A program made the translations under genes and the position numbers. A stretch of DNA of 64,000 nucleotides from NCBI RefSeq assembly GCF_004342225.1, contig NZ_SMAR01000001.1, forward strand, positions 186,001 to 250,000, in the 5' to 3' direction. This DNA comes from Martelella mediterranea (lineage in GTDB: Bacteria > Pseudomonadota > Alphaproteobacteria > Rhizobiales > Rhizobiaceae). Below are positions 6,281 through 40,258 of this stretch, one piece after another (within the stretch, counting starts at the first letter, position 1; each line of letters starts with the position of its first letter). The notes below the pieces were generated by a model. It ran no database searches and had not been told where the DNA came from. It was given only the letters and a program-made list of their open reading frames with translations.

Positions 6281-7150
6281 TCAGAGCCGCTCCCAGCTTT
6301 CAGGCACGACATGTTCTCCGTTCAGTTTTTGCGCTTCGGGGAACCAGCGCGCGGGCGCTATGACATGTTTTTCAGGACTGGGGTTCAGCCAGGCTCCCCA
6401 CCAGCTGAACGTGCTGTTGGGCAGGATATGCGAACCGCACCTGCTCATCAGCATCATATCTTCGCAGTCGCGGCCATCCGCATTCGGGTCGATAAAGATG
6501 ATCGGATAGTCCTCGCCGATAATTTCGCGGGCAAAGGGCGGGTGATCCGAAAACACAAAGAACGTCGGGTTTTCGATCCGCTCTGCCATCCGGCGCATGG
6601 CCTCGCGAAACCAGTCAGCATCGCAGACACCGAAAAGCGCACGCGAAGCCGGATCGTTCGGATCATCGCCGCAACGAATATGAACAGATACGGCGTTCAC
6701 AGCGTTCATTTGCCGGGCGATCGCGGCGCGTTCGGCGGTAAACGGGGCTTTAAGGGAGAGGTCGTTTCGAATGGTATCGGCGTAACCGGAGAAATAACGC
6801 TCGCATTGCCAGAACCCGCTCAGATAGACGTTACCGCGCAGTTGCGGGATGGCCGGATCAAAAGCCATGGATTGTTCAAGAATACGGCGTGGCATGCCAA
6901 ATGCGCCAAGAACGGCGTTGGCAATGGACTGCTGCAGCCCTGCACTGAATTTCGGCGGTCGCTTTTTGCGATCGGTGATCAGGCCGGCTTCAATATTGAA
7001 GTCGCCGAGGGCATAGTCGCGCAAAGGGTCACGCGAGAATCCCGTGATGTCGAGCATAAGTGGCTGCCTAAGTCGCAGTGACAGTGCCCGGCCTGTGGCA
7101 TACTCAAACATCTGGTTTCCCAGCCCGCCCATCAACTGACTTATTGTCAT
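6281..7150 (-). CDS. GT11 family glycosyltransferase (alpha-1,2-fucosyltransferase-like)
   Basis: 289 residues. The start MGGLGNQMFEYATGRAL is the GDP-binding signature of GT11 enzymes, which transfer fucose from GDP-fucose to galactose residues of surface glycans. The middle carries VSVHIRCGDD, a version of the HxRxGD motif whose usual second Arg is Cys, and the C-terminal part has ILPNSTFSWWGAWL. Its ATG overlaps the stop of the upstream FAD dehydrogenase by 4 bp (ATGA), so it is translationally coupled as the last gene of a three-gene operon. No other glycan genes are near. The donor sugar is inferred from family only. Confidence 0.85.
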   Translation of the reverse strand: MTISQLMGGLGNQMFEYATGRALSLRLRQPLMLDITGFSRDPLRDYALGDFNIEAGLITDRKKRPPKFSAGLQQSIANAVLGAFGMPRRILEQSMAFDPAIPQLRGNVYLSGFWQCERYFSGYADTIRNDLSLKAPFTAERAAIARQMNAVNAVSVHIRCGDDPNDPASRALFGVCDADWFREAMRRMAERIENPTFFVFSDHPPFAREIIGEDYPIIFIDPNADGRDCEDMMLMSRCGSHILPNSTFSWWGAWLNPSPEKHVIAPARWFPEAQKLNGEHVVPESWERL

Positions 7151-29681: not shown

Positions 29682-30263
29682 TCAGAAAGCTTCCATTTCA
29701 CCTTTCACTTTTCTCAGAAAATTCGCGCGTGTTTCCGGGGTGCAGTTGTTCATGTCGTAATGCGCCATGAACTTAATCGGCGCACCGATCTTGATCTGCG
29801 CGCGCATGGTCCGGGTGATGATCTTTTTCGGCGGATTGCCTGCCAGAAATGCCCGCATCGGAGTTGCGCCATAGGTTAAGACCGATGCCAGCTTGGTGAT
29901 GTGGCGCAGCGTTGGGGTCAGTTTTCCATCCTGAAGAGCAAAGGTCACGCCCGGCAGCCAGACACGGTCAAAATAGCCTTTCAGCATGGCCGGAAAGCCA
30001 AAATTCCACACCGGGGAAACAATCACCAGAGCCTCGGCTTTCTGCAAGCGCTCAACGTATCCAGCCACCGGCCCGGTATTTTCCGGGTAATCGTGATAGC
30101 GAATACGCTCTTCACGGGTCAGAACCGGCTGAAAGTTTTCAGCATAAAGGTCGCAGTCATCGACCTCATGTCCCGCTTTGGTGAGGCTCTCGACAACCTG
30201 CTTGTGAAGGGCCGCACCATAGCTGGTTTCTACCGGATGTGAAAAAAGAACAAGAACCCGCAT
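29682..30263 (-). CDS. NAD(P)H-quinone oxidoreductase, flavodoxin-like (NQO1/MdaB type)
   Basis: 193 residues with flavodoxin fold: MRVLVLFSHPVETSYGAAL (FMN/FAD phosphate loop), VIVSPVWNFGFPAMLKGYFD (the PxxxxxxPAxLKG family motif) and a middle GVTFALQDGKLTP. Two-electron reduction of quinones or similar compounds. It starts 2 bp after the upstream FAD oxidase gene stops and is the last gene of the ABC importer/amidohydrolase operon. Confidence 0.87.
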   Translation of the reverse strand: MRVLVLFSHPVETSYGAALHKQVVESLTKAGHEVDDCDLYAENFQPVLTREERIRYHDYPENTGPVAGYVERLQKAEALVIVSPVWNFGFPAMLKGYFDRVWLPGVTFALQDGKLTPTLRHITKLASVLTYGATPMRAFLAGNPPKKIITRTMRAQIKIGAPIKFMAHYDMNNCTPETRANFLRKVKGEMEAF

Positions 30264-30265
30264 GA

Positions 30266-31672
30266 CTATTCTGCTACCTCGGCGAGGCCTTTGAAGAGGA
30301 AGTTGCGCCCGGCTTTGAAATCGAAGTCCGGGTTTTCCCAGGCAATCATCTTGCCGGGGTTCAAAAGGCCCTTGGGATCGGTTTGCTTTTTGAAAGCGAG
30401 CTGCAGTTCATCGGTCTGCTTCATCCCGCCTTCTTCCAGAGTGTAGCGATGTGGATTGAAAATTGGGCAGCCGTTTTCTTCATGGATGCGGATGATTTCT
30501 TCCAGCCGTTCGGGTGTTGTGTAACGCACCAGCGGCAGGCCGGAGCATTGAATCCCGCCGTCGAAACGCAGGAACTCAAGGTGGCCGATCACCTCGTCAC
30601 CGAAGAGCTCGGTCATCTGCTGAACCTTGGCGACATGATCAGGTCCGGGATATTGGACCTGAAGATAGGTGAAGGATTCCGGCTCCATTTTGAGCGCGCG
30701 CAGCGTCGTGTGGTTCCAGCCCAGCTCATAGGCACGCGGCAGACCGCGCAAACTTTCAGCTTCATCGGCACGGAAGCGGATTTCGCCCTTGTGCATTTTC
30801 ACGAGCGCTTCAAACGGTGCCAGCGAATGCGGGGCGACCATGACGACGGAAACCGACTCGCCTTCTTTCAGATAAGGTTTGTGGCGGTTGAAATAGTCAT
30901 AGGGCACAGGTGCTGCAATGGGGGCGATTTCCTTGGTCAGAATACCGCTGGAAGACGCCAGCGCATCGGAGAATTTGACCGCATCCATGAAGGTGTCATG
31001 GCCGACAATGATGTCGACCCAGTCATAGGCAGGGGCCAGCGGCATTTCCACTTCGGTGATGATGCCATTGGTGCCATAGGCATGGCTGACCTTGAGAAGA
31101 TCGCGGGCGGTCAGTTCCATGACCCTTGGTTCAGCCTCCAGCGTGACAATGCGCAGTCGCAGAACATTGCCGAGGTCGCGCAGGCCACCCCATGTGACAG
31201 AGCCAACGCCGCCCGAACCACCGGCGACGAAACCGCCCAGTGTCGCCTGACCGGTTGTAGAGGGGTGGAAGCGCAGCTCCTGCCCGGAGTGCTCTTTCAG
31301 TTGTTTGTCCAGCTGGGCGCAGATAATGCCAGCTTCCGTGATGACGCGGCCCGGATGGATTTCCTTGATCCGGTTCATCCTGGTCATATCGAGAACGATG
31401 CCGCCGGAAAGCGGCATGCACTGACCATAATTGCCTGTTCCGCCGCCCCGGGCGGTGACGGGAACATCATGCTTGAACGCGACTTTGAGAACTTTGATCA
31501 GCTCTTCTTCACTGGCCGGTGATACCACCAGATCTCCGGTGACGTTTTCAAGCTGTTCTTTGAGGATCGGGGAATACCAGTAGAAATCCCGGCTCTTGCG
31601 CAGAACCATGTTCGGATTGTCTTCAATAGCGATGCCGTCAAGTTCGGCCTTGATCTGCTGATAGTCAGGCAT
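30266..31672 (-). CDS. FAD-binding oxidase (VAO/PCMH family) in the amidohydrolase operon
   Basis: 468 residues. The FAD loop is VTARGGGTGNYGQCMPLSGG near residue 75 and HPSTTGQATLGGFVAGGSGG near residue 140; the C-terminal part ends KKQTDPKGLLNPGKMI, common to GlcD/D-lactate dehydrogenase relatives. It differs clearly from the FAD dehydrogenase near 8 kb and lacks that protein's HIGDGN metal motif. It starts 2 bp after the amidohydrolase stop. It probably oxidises a product of the pathway, perhaps with the downstream quinone reductase; the substrate is unknown. Confidence 0.85.
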   Translation of the reverse strand: MPDYQQIKAELDGIAIEDNPNMVLRKSRDFYWYSPILKEQLENVTGDLVVSPASEEELIKVLKVAFKHDVPVTARGGGTGNYGQCMPLSGGIVLDMTRMNRIKEIHPGRVITEAGIICAQLDKQLKEHSGQELRFHPSTTGQATLGGFVAGGSGGVGSVTWGGLRDLGNVLRLRIVTLEAEPRVMELTARDLLKVSHAYGTNGIITEVEMPLAPAYDWVDIIVGHDTFMDAVKFSDALASSSGILTKEIAPIAAPVPYDYFNRHKPYLKEGESVSVVMVAPHSLAPFEALVKMHKGEIRFRADEAESLRGLPRAYELGWNHTTLRALKMEPESFTYLQVQYPGPDHVAKVQQMTELFGDEVIGHLEFLRFDGGIQCSGLPLVRYTTPERLEEIIRIHEENGCPIFNPHRYTLEEGGMKQTDELQLAFKKQTDPKGLLNPGKMIAWENPDFDFKAGRNFLFKGLAEVAE

Positions 31673-31674
31673 GT

Positions 31675-32985
31675 CTACTTTTCCATGAGCGGGTCAAGTT
31701 CACGATAATCCGGCAGGCTACGGTCGATGCCCATGCCATTCCGCATCACGATGCGGTCAGCCTGCGGACGGGATAGGAATTCGCTCCAGCGGCGGGCGCT
31801 GAACAGGACGAGGTCGCCTGGGCCTCCCTTTTTGATCAAGCCTCGCTCCGGGCGGCCAAGAATATCGGCGGGTGAGCGGGTCATGACCCGCGCCGCATCA
31901 TCCAGCGGATGATCGAGCTGGAGAATACGCACGGCTTCGCGGATCACCTCTACAGGGTCAAGGTCGCCGTACGCGTAAAACGGATCGCGGGTGTTATCAG
32001 AGGCAACAGCGGTTTTTACACCGGCCGCAGCAAGCTCCTTCAAAAGCGTAACCCCTCGCCAGCGCGGGGTTCTGCCTGCTTCACGGCCCTGAAGATACAT
32101 GTTGCACATTGGCAGGGAGACAACAGAAATCTCCGCCCTTGCAACCAGATCGATCGTGCGTTTGGCTGTTTCTTCATCCTGAACCGCCAGCGAACAGCAA
32201 TGGCCGACGGTGACTGCACCTTCAAAGCCGAGGCGCAGTTTTGCCTCTGCTATATCCTTCAGCGTCAGCACAGATGGATCGCCGGTTTCATCGACATGCA
32301 GATCGATGTTGAGGTCGTTTTCAGTGGCAGCGGAAAACAGCCGGTCAAGTTGTGGGACCAGGTCTGGTCCGGGTTGAGTCACGCCTCCAAGAAGTCCGTT
32401 GTGCTTTCTGAGGATGGCCAGAAGATCATCGAAGAACGGTTCAAAAATCTGATCTGTTGCGAACAGTGCCACGGCCTGAAGTTCGATCTTGTTCGCCCAT
32501 TTTTCTCTGATGTCGTCAAAGACTTCGAAGGAAATTTCATGCTGAGGCGGCAGGCTGTCGAGATGCGTGCGTAAAAGTGCCGTGCCATGGGCATAGGCAG
32601 TCTTCAGGGAAAACTCCATGCGTGCGGCCACATCATCGGCAGACCAGTTGGCCTGACGGTCCGCCATGACATTCTCCAGTGCGCCCATGAAGGTTCCATC
32701 CGGGTTGCGGCGTCGCTCCCAGATGTGCCCCTTGTCGATATGCGTGTGCATATCACAAAAGGTCGGCCAGATCATGCCATCGCGCATGTCAGCGTGCGGC
32801 ATATCCTTTGGCGCATGCCCGGCAGGAAGAATGTCGCTGATGCGACCATCCCTGACTGTGATGTCGACGGAAACAAGCCCCTCGCGAACATCAAGGTTTG
32901 GGATTTCTGCAATGCAGACTGCAGGAACAGTTGCTTTAGTCAGCGCAAAATGTGGCGCTTCAGGCAACTTCACAAACGGTATCAT
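31675..32985 (-). CDS. Cytosine-deaminase-like amidohydrolase
   Basis: 436 residues of the metal-dependent amidohydrolase superfamily, closest in motif style to cytosine deaminase (CodA). Metal ligands: FCDMHTHIDKGH (HxH plus Lys), LHVDETGD, VTVGHCCSLAV and ASDNTRDPFYAYGD (the Asp that acts as base, as in CodA VASDDVxDPWYPLG). A cytosolic hydrolytic deaminase or cyclic amidohydrolase is expected. It overlaps the permease stop by one base and is followed by the FAD oxidase, so it acts on whatever the ABC importer brings in. Confidence 0.85.
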   Translation of the reverse strand: MIPFVKLPEAPHFALTKATVPAVCIAEIPNLDVREGLVSVDITVRDGRISDILPAGHAPKDMPHADMRDGMIWPTFCDMHTHIDKGHIWERRRNPDGTFMGALENVMADRQANWSADDVAARMEFSLKTAYAHGTALLRTHLDSLPPQHEISFEVFDDIREKWANKIELQAVALFATDQIFEPFFDDLLAILRKHNGLLGGVTQPGPDLVPQLDRLFSAATENDLNIDLHVDETGDPSVLTLKDIAEAKLRLGFEGAVTVGHCCSLAVQDEETAKRTIDLVARAEISVVSLPMCNMYLQGREAGRTPRWRGVTLLKELAAAGVKTAVASDNTRDPFYAYGDLDPVEVIREAVRILQLDHPLDDAARVMTRSPADILGRPERGLIKKGGPGDLVLFSARRWSEFLSRPQADRIVMRNGMGIDRSLPDYRELDPLMEK

Positions 32986-33821
32986 CAGTTTTCCCTCTTG
33001 AGGCTGCTTTCATGCCAGCGGTGCAGGAAGAGCCAGGCAATGAAGGACGTCAGTGCAAAGATTGCGACACCGAGACAGGCCAGCATAAAGAGCGCTGCAA
33101 ACAGGCGCGGAATATTCAGCCGGTACTGCGATTCCAGAAGGCGGAAGGCGAGGCCCGAGCCTGCGCCGGCAGAGCCTGCTGCAAATTCAGCCACGACAGC
33201 GGCAATCAGTGCCAACCCTCCGCCGATTCTCAGACCGGTCATGAAGTATGGCAGTGCGGCGGGCATTTTCAAATGAATGAGTGTCTGCCAGCGGGACGCA
33301 CCATAGAGCTCAAACAGGTTCAGAAGATTATGATCAACGCTTTTCAGGCCTTGCGCCATGTTGGACAGGATCGGAAAGAAAGCAACCAGAAACGCACAGA
33401 TCAGAAGTGCGACCTGTGTCGTCGGTGTGTAAATCAAAATCAGCGGCGCAATCGCTACGATCGGGGTAACCTGCAGGATCACGGTAATAGGATAAAGTGC
33501 GGTTTCAATCCAGCGCGACTGGATCATGATCACGGCAAGGCCAACACCACCGACAAGGGCGAGGCCGAGCGAGATAAAGGTGATCTTTGTGGTGACCCAC
33601 AATGCAGGCGCCAGCGTTCCCCAGTCTTCGAAGAAGGCTTTCACCACGAGGGCAGGGCCGGGCAGGATGTAATGCGGCGTATCATAGATGACGACAATCG
33701 TCTGCCAGATGCCGACCAGAAGCGCCAGAACGCCGATCGGTATTGCGATCTTCAGGATTGTGTCACCGTGCCGGTTCCAGAAGCTGCGTTCGACGGTGAG
33801 TGGTTCAGTGCTGTCTGCCAT
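32985..33821 (-). CDS. ABC transporter permease (SsuC/ThiX-like)
   Basis: 278 residues, six or so membrane helices, first at residues 25-45 (IAIPIGVLALLVGIWQTIVV). The EAA loop that docks the ATPase is ELYGASRWQTLIHLKMPAALPYF. Family of taurine, nitrate and pyrimidine permeases. It shares single-base stop/start overlaps with the ATPase gene before it and the amidohydrolase gene after it. Confidence 0.92.
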   Translation of the reverse strand: MADSTEPLTVERSFWNRHGDTILKIAIPIGVLALLVGIWQTIVVIYDTPHYILPGPALVVKAFFEDWGTLAPALWVTTKITFISLGLALVGGVGLAVIMIQSRWIETALYPITVILQVTPIVAIAPLILIYTPTTQVALLICAFLVAFFPILSNMAQGLKSVDHNLLNLFELYGASRWQTLIHLKMPAALPYFMTGLRIGGGLALIAAVVAEFAAGSAGAGSGLAFRLLESQYRLNIPRLFAALFMLACLGVAIFALTSFIAWLFLHRWHESSLKREN

Positions 33822-34660
33822 CAGTGTTCACCCCCGGCGGCATGGATTGCGCCCTGAAGGGCATGGGAAACCTTTGCGCAAGCCTGATGATATTCTTCCG
33901 ACGAGCGGTAGTCCTCGTCACGTTCGGCACTGGTTACAAGCGGGAAGTCGTCAAAAACCTGGCCGGGCCGGGCTCGCATCACCACGATCCGGCTGGAAAG
34001 GTACGCCGATTCAAAAACAGAGTGGGTGACGAAGATCACGGTAATCCCGGTTTCGCGCCAGAGCTTGAGAACATCGTCATTCAGACGTTGACGGGTGATT
34101 TCATCAAGGGCGGCGAACGGCTCATCCATCAGCAGAAGCTTTGGCTTTGTCACCAGTGCGCGGGCAATGGAAACGCGCATCTTCATGCCGCCGGACAGTT
34201 CACGCGGATAGGCATCGGCGAACTGGTCGAGTCCGACCGTTTTCAGTACGTCCATAATGTCCGCGCGGGCAGCGGCTTTAGAAATACCACGCAGCTTCAG
34301 CGGCAGGTAGACATTGCCGAAGACGGTCGCCCACGGCATCAGCGTCGGCTCCTGAAAGACAAAGCTGATATCGCCTTCCGGTCTGCCATTGGCGGAAATG
34401 CGTGAACTTGGCCAGTCGATCTCGCCTTTGGTGATATCACCAAGCGCGGACATGATCCTCAGGGCGGTGGATTTGCCACAGCCCGATGGACCCAGCAGGC
34501 TCACGAATTGACCACGTTCCACTGTCAGCGACATGTTGGAAAGTGCGACCGTTCCATTTGAGAAAACCTTGCTCACATTCTTCATCGTGACCAGAGGTTT
34601 GGCCAGTGACGGCGGTGTGGCTGACGCCGGTTTGGCACCCGATTGAGACATTCGCTTCAA
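33821..34660 (-). CDS. ABC transporter ATP-binding protein (SsuB/TauB/ThiZ-like)
   Basis: 279 residues. Walker A GPSGCGKSTALR, signature LSGGMKMRVSIARAL, Walker B LLLMDEPFAALD and switch FVTHSVFESAYL are intact. Powers the importer with the permease encoded next to it. It is separated from the substrate-binding protein gene by 81 bp containing a hairpin, which would lower its expression relative to the binding protein. Confidence 0.93.
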   Translation of the reverse strand: MKRMSQSGAKPASATPPSLAKPLVTMKNVSKVFSNGTVALSNMSLTVERGQFVSLLGPSGCGKSTALRIMSALGDITKGEIDWPSSRISANGRPEGDISFVFQEPTLMPWATVFGNVYLPLKLRGISKAAARADIMDVLKTVGLDQFADAYPRELSGGMKMRVSIARALVTKPKLLLMDEPFAALDEITRQRLNDDVLKLWRETGITVIFVTHSVFESAYLSSRIVVMRARPGQVFDDFPLVTSAERDEDYRSSEEYHQACAKVSHALQGAIHAAGGEH

Positions 34661-34678
34661 TTCCGAAAAATGTTTGGG

Positions 34679-34712
34679 CCGACCGGATTACCGGAAAAAG
34701 GTATCCGGTCGG
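34679..34712 (-). terminator. Intercistronic hairpin between binding protein and ATPase genes
   Basis: CCGACCGGAT pairs perfectly with ATCCGGTCGG (10 bp), and the stem continues by three more pairs past a bulged T, with a loop of GGAAAAA. No T-run follows, so it is more likely an mRNA-stabilising or attenuating hairpin that favours the binding-protein transcript than a full terminator. Confidence 0.6.
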
Positions 34713-34741
34713 GATACTGTCATCTCGATTGAAAACCGGGA

Positions 34742-35749
34742 TTACTTCTTCAGATCGGCGCCGACATTCTTGCAGACGAATTCGGTGGTAAAGGCCTTGG
34801 TGTAATCCAGGTCGCTTTCAAACAGCCCGATCTCGACCATCTGATCAAAGAATTTTTTGTAATGTGCGTCGGTTATGCAGCCAATGCCGCCTTCCATCGC
34901 ATCACCTGATTCCACGATGCCATATTCCTTCATCTTTTCGATGGAGTAGGCGATCTGCTCATCCGTCATTTCCGGATTGTCTTTCTTGATCAGATCGTTG
35001 GCCGCGGTGTTGTCACCGTAGAGATAGTTGTACCACCCCTCGATGGAAGCATCGACAAAGCGCTGCACGAGATCGGGGTTTTCGTCGACAAGCTCCTGAC
35101 GTGTGGTGATCATGGTTGAGTAGGGCGCATAGCCTTCGTCCGCGAGAAGGAAGACCTTCGGTGCCCAGCCAGCTTCCTTTTCAACCGAATAAGGCTCTGA
35201 CGTCAGGTAGCCCTGCTGTGCAGACTTAGGGTCAGCGATGAATGGGGCCGGGTTGAAGGTGTATGGTTTGTACTGAGCATCGGAGAAGCCTTCGAAGTTG
35301 GTCTTCATCCACTCGAAGTAGCTCAGGAAGCCATCCTTGCCCATAAAAATGGTCGGAAGCTCGGCCAGATCCTCAAAATCTTCAATGCCCTGGTCGGGGT
35401 GAGCCATCAGGATTTGCGGATCTTTCTGGAAGATGGCTGCGACATCAAGTGTGGGGATGTCCTGCTTGACGGCATCCAGCTCACCCTGCGGGGAGCCCAT
35501 GTAAAAGTCGATCTTGCCAGCAATCAGAAGCGCGCTGTTGGCAGCCTGCGGACCGCCCTGAACGACGGTGACGTCAAGGCCGTATTTCTCGTAGGTTCCG
35601 TCGGCAACGGCTTGATAAAAGCCGCCATGTTCTGCCTGAGCGAGCCAGTTGGTGCCGTAGCTGACCTCATCCAGCGCAAAAGCCTGCGTCGTTGCTGCCA
35701 TTGTAAAAGCAGCACCGGCAAAAGCTGCCGTTTTCAGCAATGTTGACAT
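34742..35749 (-). CDS. ABC transporter substrate-binding protein, NMT1/THI5-like
   Basis: 335 residues with signal peptide (LLKTAAFAGAAFTMAATTQA, cleavage after AFA). NMT1/THI5-like core: VSYGTNWLAQAEHGGFYQAV, GLDVTVVQGGPQAANSALLI, GKIDFYMGSPQGELDAV. Relatives bind thiamine pyrimidines, formyl-aminopyrimidines, taurine or aromatic sulfonates. Next to a cytosine-deaminase-like enzyme, a nitrogen heterocycle is the most reasonable ligand, but this is inference. First gene of the operon and divergent from the LysR gene. Confidence 0.9.
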   Translation of the reverse strand: MSTLLKTAAFAGAAFTMAATTQAFALDEVSYGTNWLAQAEHGGFYQAVADGTYEKYGLDVTVVQGGPQAANSALLIAGKIDFYMGSPQGELDAVKQDIPTLDVAAIFQKDPQILMAHPDQGIEDFEDLAELPTIFMGKDGFLSYFEWMKTNFEGFSDAQYKPYTFNPAPFIADPKSAQQGYLTSEPYSVEKEAGWAPKVFLLADEGYAPYSTMITTRQELVDENPDLVQRFVDASIEGWYNYLYGDNTAANDLIKKDNPEMTDEQIAYSIEKMKEYGIVESGDAMEGGIGCITDAHYKKFFDQMVEIGLFESDLDYTKAFTTEFVCKNVGADLKK

Positions 35750-35820
35750 TTCACTATTCCCCTTCGCCTTATAAGCATTGTTTTAAGATTGCATTTGAGC
35801 GGCTTGACTGCGCTTTGGGA

Positions 35821-35847
35821 AGCATCAAATTTCGTCCGCATTGATGC
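35821..35847. promoter_or_regulatory. Candidate operator, copy A (AGCATC-N15-TGATGC)
   Basis: An inverted repeat AGCATC-N15-TGATGC followed by seven T, 72 bp upstream of the binding-protein gene and inside the divergent LysR/importer promoter region. The same element with identical spacing and T-run occurs upstream of the creatininase gene (37790-37816). It is a candidate site for the LysR regulator encoded next to it. Confidence 0.6.
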
Positions 35848-35925
35848 TTTTTTTGCATCGCACGCCTAATTGGTGTAATTGTCATCGAACTGCGCAAAAA
35901 ATGATCACTACACCTTGTTTCAGAC

Positions 35926-36867
35926 ATGCTTCATTCCAGAAAACTTCAGTATATCGACGAGATTGCGCGCTGCGGATCGATCCGCAAAGCGGCGGCCCGT
36001 CTCAATGTTGCATCCTCCGCCGTAAACCGCCAGATTCTGGCGCTTGAGGAGGAGTTTGGTGCGCCTTTGTTTGAGCGGCTGCCGCGTGGTCTTCGCCTGA
36101 CTGCCGCCGGTGAGATGTGCGTCGAGCATATCCGCGAGGTGCTGAAAGGCTATGAGCGCATGGAATCGCGTATTCGTGCGTTGAAAATGCCGCAGGCGGG
36201 CAAGGTTACACTCGTGACCACAGTCGGTCTCGCCGCCGGTCCGCTGCCGGATATTATCGCCCGTTTTGTCGAGAAAAACCCGCGGATCAAGATTCACCTG
36301 CGTTCCGATGGCGGAACGACCACAATTGCATCGGTGTTGACTGGTGAAGTGGATATTGGCCTCGGCTTTAACATCCCGCCGACACCGGGGTTGCGCACGC
36401 TGGCGACCTTTGATGTGCCCATCGGCGCCGTTTTGCCGCCGGATCACAAGCTGGCGGAGCAGGAGCAGGTGAATGTTTCGGATATCGTTCAGGAGCCGCT
36501 GGTTCTGGCGCAGCCCGGTACAAGTCTTCGCGATGTCATTAATCTTGCGCTGTCACCGCTCTCGTTACCCATTGAACCGGTCGTGGAAACCAACGCGTCT
36601 GAAATGCTGAAAGAGCTGGTCAAGCGCGGAACCGGACTGACCTTTCTGAACCCGCTGGATGTTTATGTCGAGTGTCAGCGCGGCACGCTGGTTTTCCGGC
36701 CGCTGGCTGATCCGCATATCCGTCATCAGCCGATGAAAGTGTTCTCACGCGCGCGCGCGCCGCTCGATGCGGCGACGAGCCTGTTCGTCGATTACCTGAT
36801 GCAGGAAATTGTCGCGATGATTGAGGATCTGCGCGAGCAGCGGCATGTGCCGCTGCCCTCGCCATGA
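35926..36867 (+). CDS. LysR family transcriptional regulator
   Basis: 313 residues. N-terminal winged helix with LQYIDEIARCGSIRKAAARL and ASSAVNRQILALEEEFGAPL (recognition helix), then the LysR substrate domain from about residue 90 (VTLVTTVGLAAGPLPDIIA). Divergent from the ABC importer operon with 176 bp between them, the classic position for a LysR activator of that operon. It converges with the creatininase gene. The inducer is unknown, probably the transported compound or its product. Confidence 0.93.
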   Translation: MLHSRKLQYIDEIARCGSIRKAAARLNVASSAVNRQILALEEEFGAPLFERLPRGLRLTAAGEMCVEHIREVLKGYERMESRIRALKMPQAGKVTLVTTVGLAAGPLPDIIARFVEKNPRIKIHLRSDGGTTTIASVLTGEVDIGLGFNIPPTPGLRTLATFDVPIGAVLPPDHKLAEQEQVNVSDIVQEPLVLAQPGTSLRDVINLALSPLSLPIEPVVETNASEMLKELVKRGTGLTFLNPLDVYVECQRGTLVFRPLADPHIRHQPMKVFSRARAPLDAATSLFVDYLMQEIVAMIEDLREQRHVPLPSP

Positions 36868-36877
36868 AGCAATTGCG

Positions 36878-37678
36878 TCAGACTGGCTGGTATAGCTTTT
36901 CCAGCGGATAGTTTTTCAGATCCTGCAGCAGTTCAATGAAACCAAGGGCTTCATGTTTTGAGATTGCCGCGCCTTTTTCAGCTGTGCCCGCGGCGGCATT
37001 GCCGAGTGCGCCCTTGGGGTTCAGGTCGTGGGCAATCCATGCCAGAGCGTGAGGTGGAGTGGGCTGAATGTGCTTTGTGGTTGCTTTCTGCCATTCGGCC
37101 AGCGATGTGAAATCCTCGGCATATTCCATTTTCACCAGTTCAGGGCGGAAGTGGAGCATCAGCGAGGTTTCGACCTCGCCGCCGTGAATGCCGAATGTCC
37201 GTTCTTTTTCGCTGATCATGCCTTCCGGATGGCCGAAACGGCCCCACTGGGTGGCAACCACAGCCAGCGAGAAACGCACGCGCATTTCACGGGCGACGAT
37301 GTTCATGATGTCGAGGTTGCCGCCGTGGCTGTTGACAATCACGAGCTTGCGCAATCCGGCCTCGGAAACTTTTTCGCCAATTGCGGTCCATGCCGGGATC
37401 AGAATATCTGCACCGAAAGACAGGGTGCCGGGACCGTAAACATGTTCATTGGCCTTGCCGATTTCCTGAACAGGCAGAACCAGAACATTCAGGTCATCCG
37501 GCAAATTTTCCTGTACCGCGTCCAGCATTCCCCGGGCTATGGCAACATCCGTTGCCACCGGAAGGTGCGGACCATGCTGTTCCGTCGAAGCAATCGGCAG
37601 GACAGCAATCGTTGTTTCGGGATCGAGTTCCTTGAATTCCGGGCTTGTCAGTTCGTTCCAGTAAAAGCGTTTCGCCAT
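36878..37678 (-). CDS. Creatininase family amidohydrolase
   Basis: 266 residues. The creatininase metal ligands are visible: Glu and His in ASTEQHGPHLPVATD, His in VNSHGGNLDIMN, and Glu in GIHGGEVETSLML. The family opens cyclic amides or removes formyl groups (creatininase, FAPy deformylase ArfB, MftE). It converges with LysR and carries upstream the same 27-bp motif as the importer operon, so I infer it belongs to the same pathway. True creatininase activity is not shown. Confidence 0.87.
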   Translation of the reverse strand: MAKRFYWNELTSPEFKELDPETTIAVLPIASTEQHGPHLPVATDVAIARGMLDAVQENLPDDLNVLVLPVQEIGKANEHVYGPGTLSFGADILIPAWTAIGEKVSEAGLRKLVIVNSHGGNLDIMNIVAREMRVRFSLAVVATQWGRFGHPEGMISEKERTFGIHGGEVETSLMLHFRPELVKMEYAEDFTSLAEWQKATTKHIQPTPPHALAWIAHDLNPKGALGNAAAGTAEKGAAISKHEALGFIELLQDLKNYPLEKLYQPV

Positions 37679-37789
37679 TTTTCTTCTGCCTGTCTGCTGT
37701 TCCCCGCCGTTCAGGCAGGGGCTTGGAGGATTTCAAGCGCTCTGCCATCGGCTCTCAGTCAGGTGTAGAAGAAGGAATAAACGGGCAAA

Positions 37790-37816
37790 AGCATCGATTT
37801 GTGTCTCTGCTGATGC
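37790..37816. promoter_or_regulatory. Candidate operator, copy B (AGCATC-N15-TGATGC)
   Basis: AGCATC-N15-TGATGC followed by CTTTTTG, 112 bp upstream of the creatininase start and in the same orientation to the gene as copy A is to the importer operon. Spacing is identical to copy A (27 bp overall), while the 15-bp centres differ, as expected for a protein-binding site. Confidence 0.58.
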
Positions 37817-37831
37817 CTTTTTGTGGTCGCT

Positions 37832-38725
37832 CTATGCGGGTTGGCGTGGTTTGCCGCGCTCGGCAATGGCAATGCCGACAATCGCAAGCCCCAGTGCGAT
37901 GCCGTGAAAGGCTTCCAGTCGTTCATTCAGGAACAGGACCGCCAGAATGGTTCCGAAAACCGGGATCAGGTTGATGAAAAGGCCCGCACGGTTTGGCCCG
38001 ATCAGCTCGACGCCGCGCATGAACAATGCCTGCGAGATCAGTGACGGGAAAAGGGCCGTATAGAGAATAGCACCAAAACCGGTGAAATCAGTCGGCAGGA
38101 TCATATGCCCCGATAAGGCTTCGCCGGCTGCCATCGGTATGGCGGCCAGAAACGCCCCGAAACAGCAGGCCATCATCATCGGGCGCCAGTCAAGCTTGGG
38201 CTTCCAGCGCAGGCTCACCGTGTAGGCGGAATAACACAGCACTGCCATCATGACGAGGAAATCACCGAAATTGATATCGAGCTGAAGAATGCGCAGCGGT
38301 GCGCCGTGTGACACGGCAATGACGACGCCGACCAGCGTAATTGCAAAACCGATGACCTGTGCCAGTGATGCATGGACCCGGAAGAGAACAAAGTTCAGGA
38401 TGAAAATCAGTAGCGGGATTCCCGTCTGATCAATGGCTGCATTGATGCCGGTTGTGAATTGCAGTCCGGCATAAAGAAAGGCATTGAAGCTGGCAAAGCC
38501 AATCGCGCCATAACCCAGAAAAAGCGGCCAGTGCTTTTTGATGACAGGCCAGTCCTTGCGGATCTGCGGCATCGAAACGATGGTCACGGCGACGGCAGCC
38601 AGCCCCCAGCGACACATGTTCAGCATCATCGGAGAGATGTGGCCCACAGCTAATTTTCCGACCGTCAGATTTCCGCCCCAAAGAAGTGTGGTGATTATAA
38701 GGAGGAAGTAAGCTTGTACCTGCAC
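37832..38725 (-). CDS. DMT superfamily (EamA) transporter
   Basis: About 297 residues with ten predicted helices in two EamA halves; first helix YFLLIITTLLWGGNLTVGKL, second half from about residue 150 (INFGDFLVMMAVLCYSAYTV), closing NLIPVFGTILAVLFLNERLE. Likely exporter of metabolites or amino acids. The start is uncertain: the GTG at 38725 has GGGACG upstream and suits the family, while a GTG at 38839 would add 38 polar residues. It may be co-transcribed toward the creatininase gene 153 bp downstream. Confidence 0.85.
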   Translation of the reverse strand: MQVQAYFLLIITTLLWGGNLTVGKLAVGHISPMMLNMCRWGLAAVAVTIVSMPQIRKDWPVIKKHWPLFLGYGAIGFASFNAFLYAGLQFTTGINAAIDQTGIPLLIFILNFVLFRVHASLAQVIGFAITLVGVVIAVSHGAPLRILQLDINFGDFLVMMAVLCYSAYTVSLRWKPKLDWRPMMMACCFGAFLAAIPMAAGEALSGHMILPTDFTGFGAILYTALFPSLISQALFMRGVELIGPNRAGLFINLIPVFGTILAVLFLNERLEAFHGIALGLAIVGIAIAERGKPRQPA

Positions 38726-38959
38726 AGGTGATTCGTCCCAGTTCTGGTTCAATTGCCGGAGCCTGGCTTTAAAAGCCGGGATGAATTGTTTTTGTTGCCA
38801 GCGCGCCTTCGAATAGACCGTGATATATGCGAGTGTCACGCGAAAACTTGATGCGCTCTTGCGCTCATGTCATGGCAATCGCCGGGATGAGCCGTTATAG
38901 AATGGCGCGGTTTGAGTAAAGTTATATTACTGGGGCATGGCCCCGAACAGGTAGGGAAG

Positions 38960-40258
38960 ATGACGAACGTTGTAGTGGTCGGCTCGCAGTGGGGCGATGA
39001 AGGCAAAGGTAAAATTGTGGACTGGCTCTCCGAGCGCGCCGATATCGTTGTGCGATATCAAGGCGGGCACAATGCCGGTCATACACTGGTGATCGACGGT
39101 ACCAGCTACAAACTTTCGCTTCTGCCGTCCGGTGTCGTGCGCTCTGGAAAGCTTTCGGTGATTGGCAATGGTGTTGTGGTTGATCCGCATGCCCTGATTG
39201 CTGAAATCGGCCGTCTTGCTGAAAAGGGTGTGGCCATCTCGCCTGAGAATCTGCGCATCGCTGACAACGCAACGCTGATCCTCTCGCTGCATCGCGAGCT
39301 TGATGGCATGCGTGAAGATGCTGCATCCGACTCCGGCACCAAGATTGGTACCACCCGCCGCGGCATTGGCCCTGCTTATGAAGACAAGGTCGGGCGCCGT
39401 GCGATCCGTCTTATGGATCTGGCCAATCTGGAAACACTGCCCGCGAAAGTCGACCGCCTGCTGACGCATCACAATGCCCTTCGCCGTGGCTTTGGTGAGC
39501 CGGAAATTGCCCATGAAACGATCATGGAAGAGCTGACATCGGTGGCGGACAAGGTTCTGCCGTTCCGCGATACCGTCTGGCTTCTTCTTGACCAGAAGCG
39601 TCGTTCAGGTGCCCGCATTCTGTTTGAAGGCGCGCAGGGCAGCCTTCTCGATATCGACCACGGCACTTATCCGTTTGTGACCTCTTCGAATACCGTTGCG
39701 GGGCAGGCTGCGGCCGGTTCCGGCATGGGGCCGGGCTCACTGGAATATGTGCTGGGCATCACCAAGGCTTACACGACGCGTGTGGGCGAGGGCCCGTTCC
39801 CGACAGAGCTTCATGACGAGGTTGGTCAGTTCCTTGGCGAGCGTGGTCATGAATTTGGCACGGTGACCGGACGTCAGCGCCGTTGTGGCTGGTTCGATGC
39901 TGTTCTGGTGCGTCAGGCTGTTGCAACCAACGGCATCACCGGCATTGCGCTGACCAAGCTTGATGTTCTCGACGGTCTTGATGAGCTTAAAATCTGCGTG
40001 GCTTATGAGCTGGATGGCGAGCGCATTGAGGCGCTTCCTGCAAGCCAGGGCGCGCAGGCGCGTGTCAAACCGGTCTACGTGACGCTTGAAGGCTGGAAAG
40101 AATCAACCGTCGGCGCCCGCAGGTGGGCAGACCTTCCGGCGCAGGCGATCAAATATGTACGCCAGGTTGAAGAGCTGATCGGTGCACCCGTCGCCCTGTT
40201 ATCCACAAGTCCGGAGCGTGACGACACCATTCTCGTGACCGATCCATTTGAAGATTAA
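38960..40258 (+). CDS. purA: Adenylosuccinate synthetase
   Basis: Joins IMP and aspartate using GTP, the first committed step to AMP; 432 residues. [20 protein letters not shown] contains the GTP P-loop and catalytic Asp, [10 protein letters not shown] the catalytic His, [14 protein letters not shown] the IMP loop, and LTKLDVLDG the guanine-binding motif. Start ATG 38960 follows AGGTAGGGAAG; an upstream in-frame stretch is not conserved. Confidence 0.98.

Follow-up and report, generated by a model that had tools for sequence, protein, structure and literature searches.

A conserved inverted-repeat element before two transcription units of an importer and creatininase-family gene cluster suggests a small regulon around a LysR-type regulator

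Why should one interrupted inverted repeat stand before two separate transcription units on either side of a lysR-type gene? Within the window, that is, the whole 64-kb stretch of DNA analysed here, a first-pass annotation had placed two copies of AGCATC-N15-TGATGC at 35821-35847 and 37790-37816, and both coordinates were confirmed. That motif matched the window three times, one match being site 1 on the opposite strand, so two distinct sites remain. In 100 shuffles of the window, the mean was 0.05 matches and the maximum was 1, and the observed count was never reached. The whole genome of origin contained one additional exact match, which sits within the coding sequence of a PhoU-family gene and was taken as chance. 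The annotation had read the pair as sites of a regulator, most simply of the LysR-type protein encoded between them; comparative tests supported this reading, in which LysR is the probable binder as judged from sequence. The elements and genes concerned are as follows, with bit scores of the elements taken from model R1 (described below).

29682..30263, minus strand: flavodoxin-fold NAD(P)H oxidoreductase (flavoreductase) gene; Pfam Flavodoxin_2
30266..31672, minus strand: FAD-binding oxidase gene; Pfam FAD_binding_4
31675..32985, minus strand: cytosine-deaminase-like amidohydrolase gene; NCBIfam NF005759, 653 bits (cut-off 403)
32985..33821, minus strand: ABC transporter permease gene; Pfam BPD_transp_1
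33821..34660, minus strand: ABC transporter ATPase gene; Pfam ABC_tran
34742..35749, minus strand: NMT1/THI5-like binding-protein gene, first of the importer operon; Pfam NMT1, weak PDB matches 4nmy, 3ix1 and 4h65
35792..35801, minus strand: -10-like block of the binding-protein operon, CGCTCAAATG, conserved at site columns -18..-9; putative promoter element
35817..35854, plus strand: site 1, a 38-bp operator-like element in the divergent lysR/binding-protein region, enclosing 35821-35847; 38.0 bits
35852..35879, plus strand: possible lysR promoter as read from the sequence, with -35 TTTGCA, where the T-run of site 1 ends, and -10 GTGTAAT
35926..36867, plus strand: gene of the LysR-type regulator to which the sites probably belong; Pfam HTH_1 and LysR_substrate, orthologues 62-88% identical
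36878..37678, minus strand: creatininase-family hydrolase gene, the second target; Pfam PF02633, 230 bits
37761..37770, minus strand: -10-like block of the creatininase gene, TTCTACACCT, at the same columns relative to site 2; putative promoter element
37786..37823, plus strand: site 2, the other copy of the element, preceding the creatininase-family gene; 31.1 bits

The LysR protein carries an N-terminal HTH_1 domain followed by a LysR_substrate domain (Pfam). The creatininase-family protein matched four NCBIfam equivalogs, creatininase and MftE among them, and scored below the cut-off of each.

The closest named relatives belonged to Martelella (Rhizobiaceae), except for one record titled Marinicella (among the best 80 of 258 relatives). 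LysR orthologues with 84-88% identity were present in 11 of the 12 other genomes of the genus, and 27 of 297 family genomes, the genome of origin included, held an orthologue at E <= 1e-100. A total of 114 loci were collected, and after dropping 16 with identical upstream sequence we retained 98 distinct loci, all of them chosen by the presence of lysR. The lysR gene was divergent from the binding-protein gene in all 98, giving a shared regulatory region, and eight traced genes, from the flavoreductase to the creatininase, stood in the same order in 94. The exceptions were L042 and L046, which have two copies of the binding-protein gene and end before the flavoreductase, L138, which is broken by a contig end, and L044, whose creatininase gene, with a site of its own, is found on a different contig. 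Site 2 was readable in 96 loci, L138 (contig end) and L044 (creatininase outside the locus) being left out.

Weight-matrix refinement on the lysR/binding-protein and pre-creatininase regions yielded a 38-bp consensus, GAAAAGCATCAAwTTnCGnnCGnnnCGATGCCTTTTTG. The matrix score exceeded 40 for site 1 in 96 of 98 loci (the degenerate copies in L042 and L046 scored 3.5 and 14.7, respectively) and was at least 24.5 for site 2 in all 96 readable loci; these values describe the sites and do not test them, since the matrix was refined on the scored regions themselves. Information per column in the core was 1.65 and 1.36 bits for sites 1 and 2, respectively, with 0.60/0.47 and 0.33/0.14 bits in the corresponding 60-nt flanks. 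In both site classes the best dyad centre was 24.5 (score 10.65 vs 6.25 for the next centre in site 1, and 8.3 vs 3.6 in site 2), which describes an interrupted inverted repeat in the lysR-target region. The motif as originally defined proved too strict and out of register with the dyad, which is GCATC-N16-GATGC; exact AGCATC-N15-TGATGC was retained in 66 of 98 copies of site 1 and in 11 of 96 copies of site 2. The first-pass annotation had proposed looking for the motif upstream of orthologues in related genomes, and there it was indeed conserved before both target genes.

Facing the target gene, both site classes had a conserved block at an equal distance from the GATGCTTTTC arm. The block before the binding-protein gene, with the family consensus CGcTCAAATG, is separated from the GATGCTT arm of site 1 by about 17-18 nt in the window, and the block before the creatininase (family consensus CCTAnnCC) was moderately conserved and less strict than the former. 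The two sites had been described as having the same orientation and spacing to their genes; the orientation held, while the spacing did not, being 72 and 112 bp by the annotation's own figures. Across relatives, the site core lay a median of 81 nt from the start codon of the binding-protein gene and 56 nt from that of the creatininase, and the constant feature of both sites was the distance to the -10-like block, unlike that to the start codon. This constant distance between block and GATGCTTTTC arm suggests that the proximal arm occupies the -35 position of the target promoters, and from two sites so placed LysR would probably activate both units. Within Martelella, the T-run of site 1 sits at the would-be -35 of lysR, with TATAAT or a similar sequence approximately 16 nt further on; the lysR -10 reads GTGTAAT in the window and TATAAT in several other Martelella.

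The specificity of the element was assessed with R1, a model built from sequence alone on 80 sites (34 copies of site 1 and 46 of site 2, out of 141 distinct). Its training set was obtained from 105 sites drawn at random, of which 25 were removed by hand, including the degenerate site of L046; it includes site 1 of the window and excludes site 2. Many of the genomes later scanned had themselves contributed training sites, and the E-values of the model are rough. The cut-offs, E <= 1e-100 for a LysR orthologue and 23.6 bits for a site, were chosen with the scores in view. In the family and order scans, 22 of several thousand first-look candidates were scored per genome under stricter filters, and weak sites were possibly missed.

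In the genome of origin, R1 gave 38.0 bits for site 1, 31.1 bits for site 2, and 14.6 bits at the best position elsewhere. In the family sample (297 genomes), all 55 matches of at least 23.6 bits fell in the 27 genomes with a LysR orthologue, two in each and three in G007, and none of the 270 genomes lacking the orthologue had such a match. The order sample (297 genomes, partly overlapping the family sample) gave matches of at least 23.6 bits in 8 of 8 genomes with a LysR orthologue and in 0 of 289 without one, where the best score was 23.0 bits (G516), a narrow margin. Three genomes of the order sample, from two other families and outside the training set, revealed both sites when their lysR loci were searched, with scores of 44.6/28.4, 29.7/20.3, and 25.3/22.0 bits; the second sites below 23.6 bits were those of G501 (22.0) and G588 (20.3). 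The seven remaining Martelella genomes with a LysR orthologue each had at least two matches of at least 23.6 bits. Martelella genome G012, which has no LysR and neither a closely related binding protein nor a closely related creatininase, gave no match above 16.5 bits. Likewise, the 92 family genomes with a creatininase homologue just 48-58% identical had no LysR orthologue (E <= 1e-100) and no site of at least 23.6 bits. A spread over many unrelated loci, which the annotation had named as contrary evidence, was thus seen neither in the genome of origin nor in the family or order samples. Matches in G013 (22.2 bits) and G283 (22.4 bits) were rejected; they fall inside FHIPEP-family (flhA-like) genes. 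The sequence surrounding a 20.7-bit match in G286 resembles that of these two, and a further match, in G102, scored 20.8 bits.

The element was also found with its genes where these are arranged differently. In G003, the creatininase and lysR lie on different contigs and the creatininase retains its site (26.4 bits). In five loci the gap between lysR and the creatininase exceeds 150 nt, and the site stands before the creatininase in all five. G007 has a second binding-protein gene, heading transporter genes, with its own site of 25.8 bits, and the site at its lysR-adjacent copy is decayed; G004 has a match of 26.7 bits corresponding to the 25.8-bit site of G007.

Two side observations concern the structure of such loci. 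In L208 (G003:C2), a block of purA, EamA, and creatininase genes lies off the contig of the lysR cluster. In L042, L046, and L210, which show the binding-protein gene duplicated in two Martelella, the site of the lysR-adjacent copy is degenerate.

We consider it likely, with a rough probability of 0.8, that both elements serve as operators within a single small, pathway-specific regulon made up of two transcription units, with the LysR-type protein encoded between them as the most likely binder. Conservation, orientation, the fixed distance to the -10-like block, and restriction to those sampled genomes that have LysR were observed directly, and as comparative evidence they make a solid case for a predicted, conserved two-promoter regulon. 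The first unit would comprise the genes for the binding protein, ATPase, permease, deaminase-like protein, FAD oxidase, and flavoreductase, divergent from lysR, and the second the creatininase-family gene alone. A LysR dimer or tetramer would contact the GCATC and GATGC arms, whose centres are 21 bp apart, or two helical turns, on one face of the DNA, and the GATGCTTTTC arm would overlap the -35 region in each target promoter. With a substrate or intermediate present, LysR would activate both units jointly; when bound to site 1 it would, in addition, cover the promoter of lysR and so limit its own synthesis. We infer LysR as binder, the activation, the autoregulation, the extent of the operon, and a single catabolic route in which these enzymes would act on an imported N-containing ring compound. 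A two-copy motif of one genome would thereby be extended to a predicted regulon that is conserved in many genera, and an orphan creatininase-family enzyme would be assigned to an importer/oxidase pathway outside its own operon. With such a regulon, the substrate can be sought through a small set of enzymes and with a reporter. Nothing on this LysR, site, or cluster was found among the titles and opening parts of abstracts covered, a body of literature in which subscription journals lay mostly outside the scope.

In its layout, the predicted system resembles known LysR-type systems in part. PMC5002191 gives the LysR-type box as T-N11-A, extended to CTATA-n9-TATAG, and describes, as seen here, an interrupted dyad within a divergent lysR-target region; the dyad common to both sites here, in contrast, has arms spaced 21 bp apart about an even centre, and it is wider than the classical 15-bp LysR box. 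T-N11-A was conserved in site 1 (0.99) and was not conserved in site 2 (best frequency 0.38) or in both sites together (0.31); the sites were therefore not filed as canonical LysR boxes. IlvY of E. coli (ilvC-ilvY) is, according to the same source, likewise divergent from its target, with 27-bp operators, one of which overlaps the -35 regions of the target and regulator promoters; the system combines activation with autorepression (PMC5002191). IlvY differs in having tandem operators in one region, with TTGCA-n5-TGCAA dyads (PMC5002191), whereas here each promoter has a single wide GCATC-N16-GATGC dyad and the second target promoter lies elsewhere. The arrangement may work in the manner of IlvY (PMC5002191), though with non-canonical sites.

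The chief competitor to the local LysR is a different regulator, either that of a second pathway or a global one, to which the operators might belong. We assign this a small share of the probability. The dyad is unusually wide and contains no T-N11-A box common to both sites, which would fit such a regulator. LysR was never seen apart from the cluster in the genomes sampled; since the two are always found together, co-occurrence alone cannot single out LysR, and any factor dedicated to the cluster fits equally well. A global regulator, however, would be hard to reconcile with just two sites well above background in the genome of origin and 55 in the 27 positive family genomes. Moreover, lysR is the sole regulator gene among the ten traced genes and is present in all 98 loci, which were selected by lysR.

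Far less probable, in our judgement, is that the elements are intrinsic terminators, with a stem and T-run that at site 2 would end the EamA gene and at site 1 would stop stray transcription. The annotation had dismissed terminators on the ground that no plus-strand gene upstream needed one; it had overlooked the EamA gene on the minus strand. The stop codon of that gene ends at 37832, 15 bases past the motif, a position that suits a terminator. Site 2 was nevertheless kept in 80 loci without an adjacent EamA gene (28 with EamA elsewhere in the locus and 52 with none within the fetched stretch), compared with 16 with an adjacent one. The plus strand of site 1 folds into a 12-pair hairpin ending in U's, yet 20 of 200 shuffles folded equally well (z -1.23); the minus strand of site 2 folded better than 198 of 200 shuffles (z -2.76), whereas site 2 of two relatives folded no better than shuffles (z -0.12 and 0.58). 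Over 80 sites, hairpin pairing was found in 74.6% of cells, against 73.9% in shuffles, of which 21 of 500 were as high, but four of the ten arm pairs were broken in 33-66 of the 80 sequences. The covariation score of the hairpin was reached by 8 of 500 shuffles, a level that related sequences can exceed without any structure, and the counts of covarying pairs and of pair types were no higher than in shuffles. It is the retention of site 2 in the 80 loci without an adjacent EamA gene, together with the broken arm pairs, that disfavours an EamA terminator. A terminator scan listed neither site; its loops were limited to 3-8, so site 1 was undetectable and the scan is uninformative here.

We give even less credence to a cis-acting, riboswitch-like RNA in the leaders of both units. 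The NMT1/THI5-like family includes riboswitch-controlled members, and the binding protein of the importer is NMT1/THI5-like; the hairpin covariation score, equalled in just 8 of 500 shuffles, points the same way. However, no Rfam match up to E = 1 was found in 34600-39000, double-change pairs and pair types were not above shuffles, and the -10-like block is downstream of the element, which would place the element outside the transcript of that promoter.

The centres of the two window copies differ, as the annotation had remarked and as those of unrelated sequences would, but chance or recent duplication of one intergenic piece is refuted as far as sequence goes, given conservation in 96 loci, a centre that each site class keeps as its own across genera, and a within-genome identity between sites 1 and 2 (0.704, n = 95) that lies within the range of shuffled pairs (mean 0.699, sd 0.003, maximum 0.706) and thus shows no sign of recent copying. 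Each has its own conserved centre, and the copies within a genome resemble each other no more than some shuffled pairings do, so they look like old sites, each separately maintained.

Returning to a LysR-controlled regulon, a broader reading can be put forward tentatively, although we would lean against it: the site would mark the genes of an undescribed catabolic route of Rhizobiaceae, a LysR subfamily would run it and read the wide GCATC-N16-GATGC rather than T-N11-A, and LysR paralogues encoded next to a Rieske-oxygenase gene in two Martelella would recognise this dyad as well. On this tentative view the route would hold an NMT1-type importer, an FAD oxidase, a flavoreductase, a deaminase-like enzyme, and a creatininase-family ring-opening or amide hydrolase. 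Irrespective of this reading, the importer is comparable to NMT1/THI5-like pyrimidine importers (3ix1, an N-formyl-aminopyrimidine-binding protein) in having an NMT1-family binding protein, as indicated by a sequence match. That match is weak, however (E 1.5e-6 for 3ix1; 4nmy matches better, at E 1.8e-10, though still weakly), and the neighbours here are oxidase, flavoreductase, deaminase-like, and creatininase-family enzymes. As a clue to the substrate, the apparent likeness to pyrimidine-binding 3ix1 is only a lead.

Among LysR paralogues, L219 (44% identical) had no site in the search. The 17 paralogue loci L018-L034 contained one strong site, in L025 and identical to that of L209, and weak ones in L025, L026, and L033; 13-14 of the 17 were without any match up to E = 1. 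In L209 (G007:C48), a 29.9-bit site copy at 6640-6672 lies in the usual orientation, flanked by the end of a LysR paralogue (35-36% identical) on one side and a Rieske-type oxygenase gene on the other, and a weak 16-bit copy stands approximately 80 nt before a TauD-family gene. An equal-scoring copy occurs at G004:C23:280340-280372, near that genome's own LysR paralogue. A related LysR may read the same dyad. Separately, two records labelled 'Marinicella sp. W31' (L091) and 'Arenimonas' MAG (L124) carry the cluster, with LysR proteins 89% and 74% identical to that of the window, respectively; either the organism names may be incorrect or the contig may have been misbinned.
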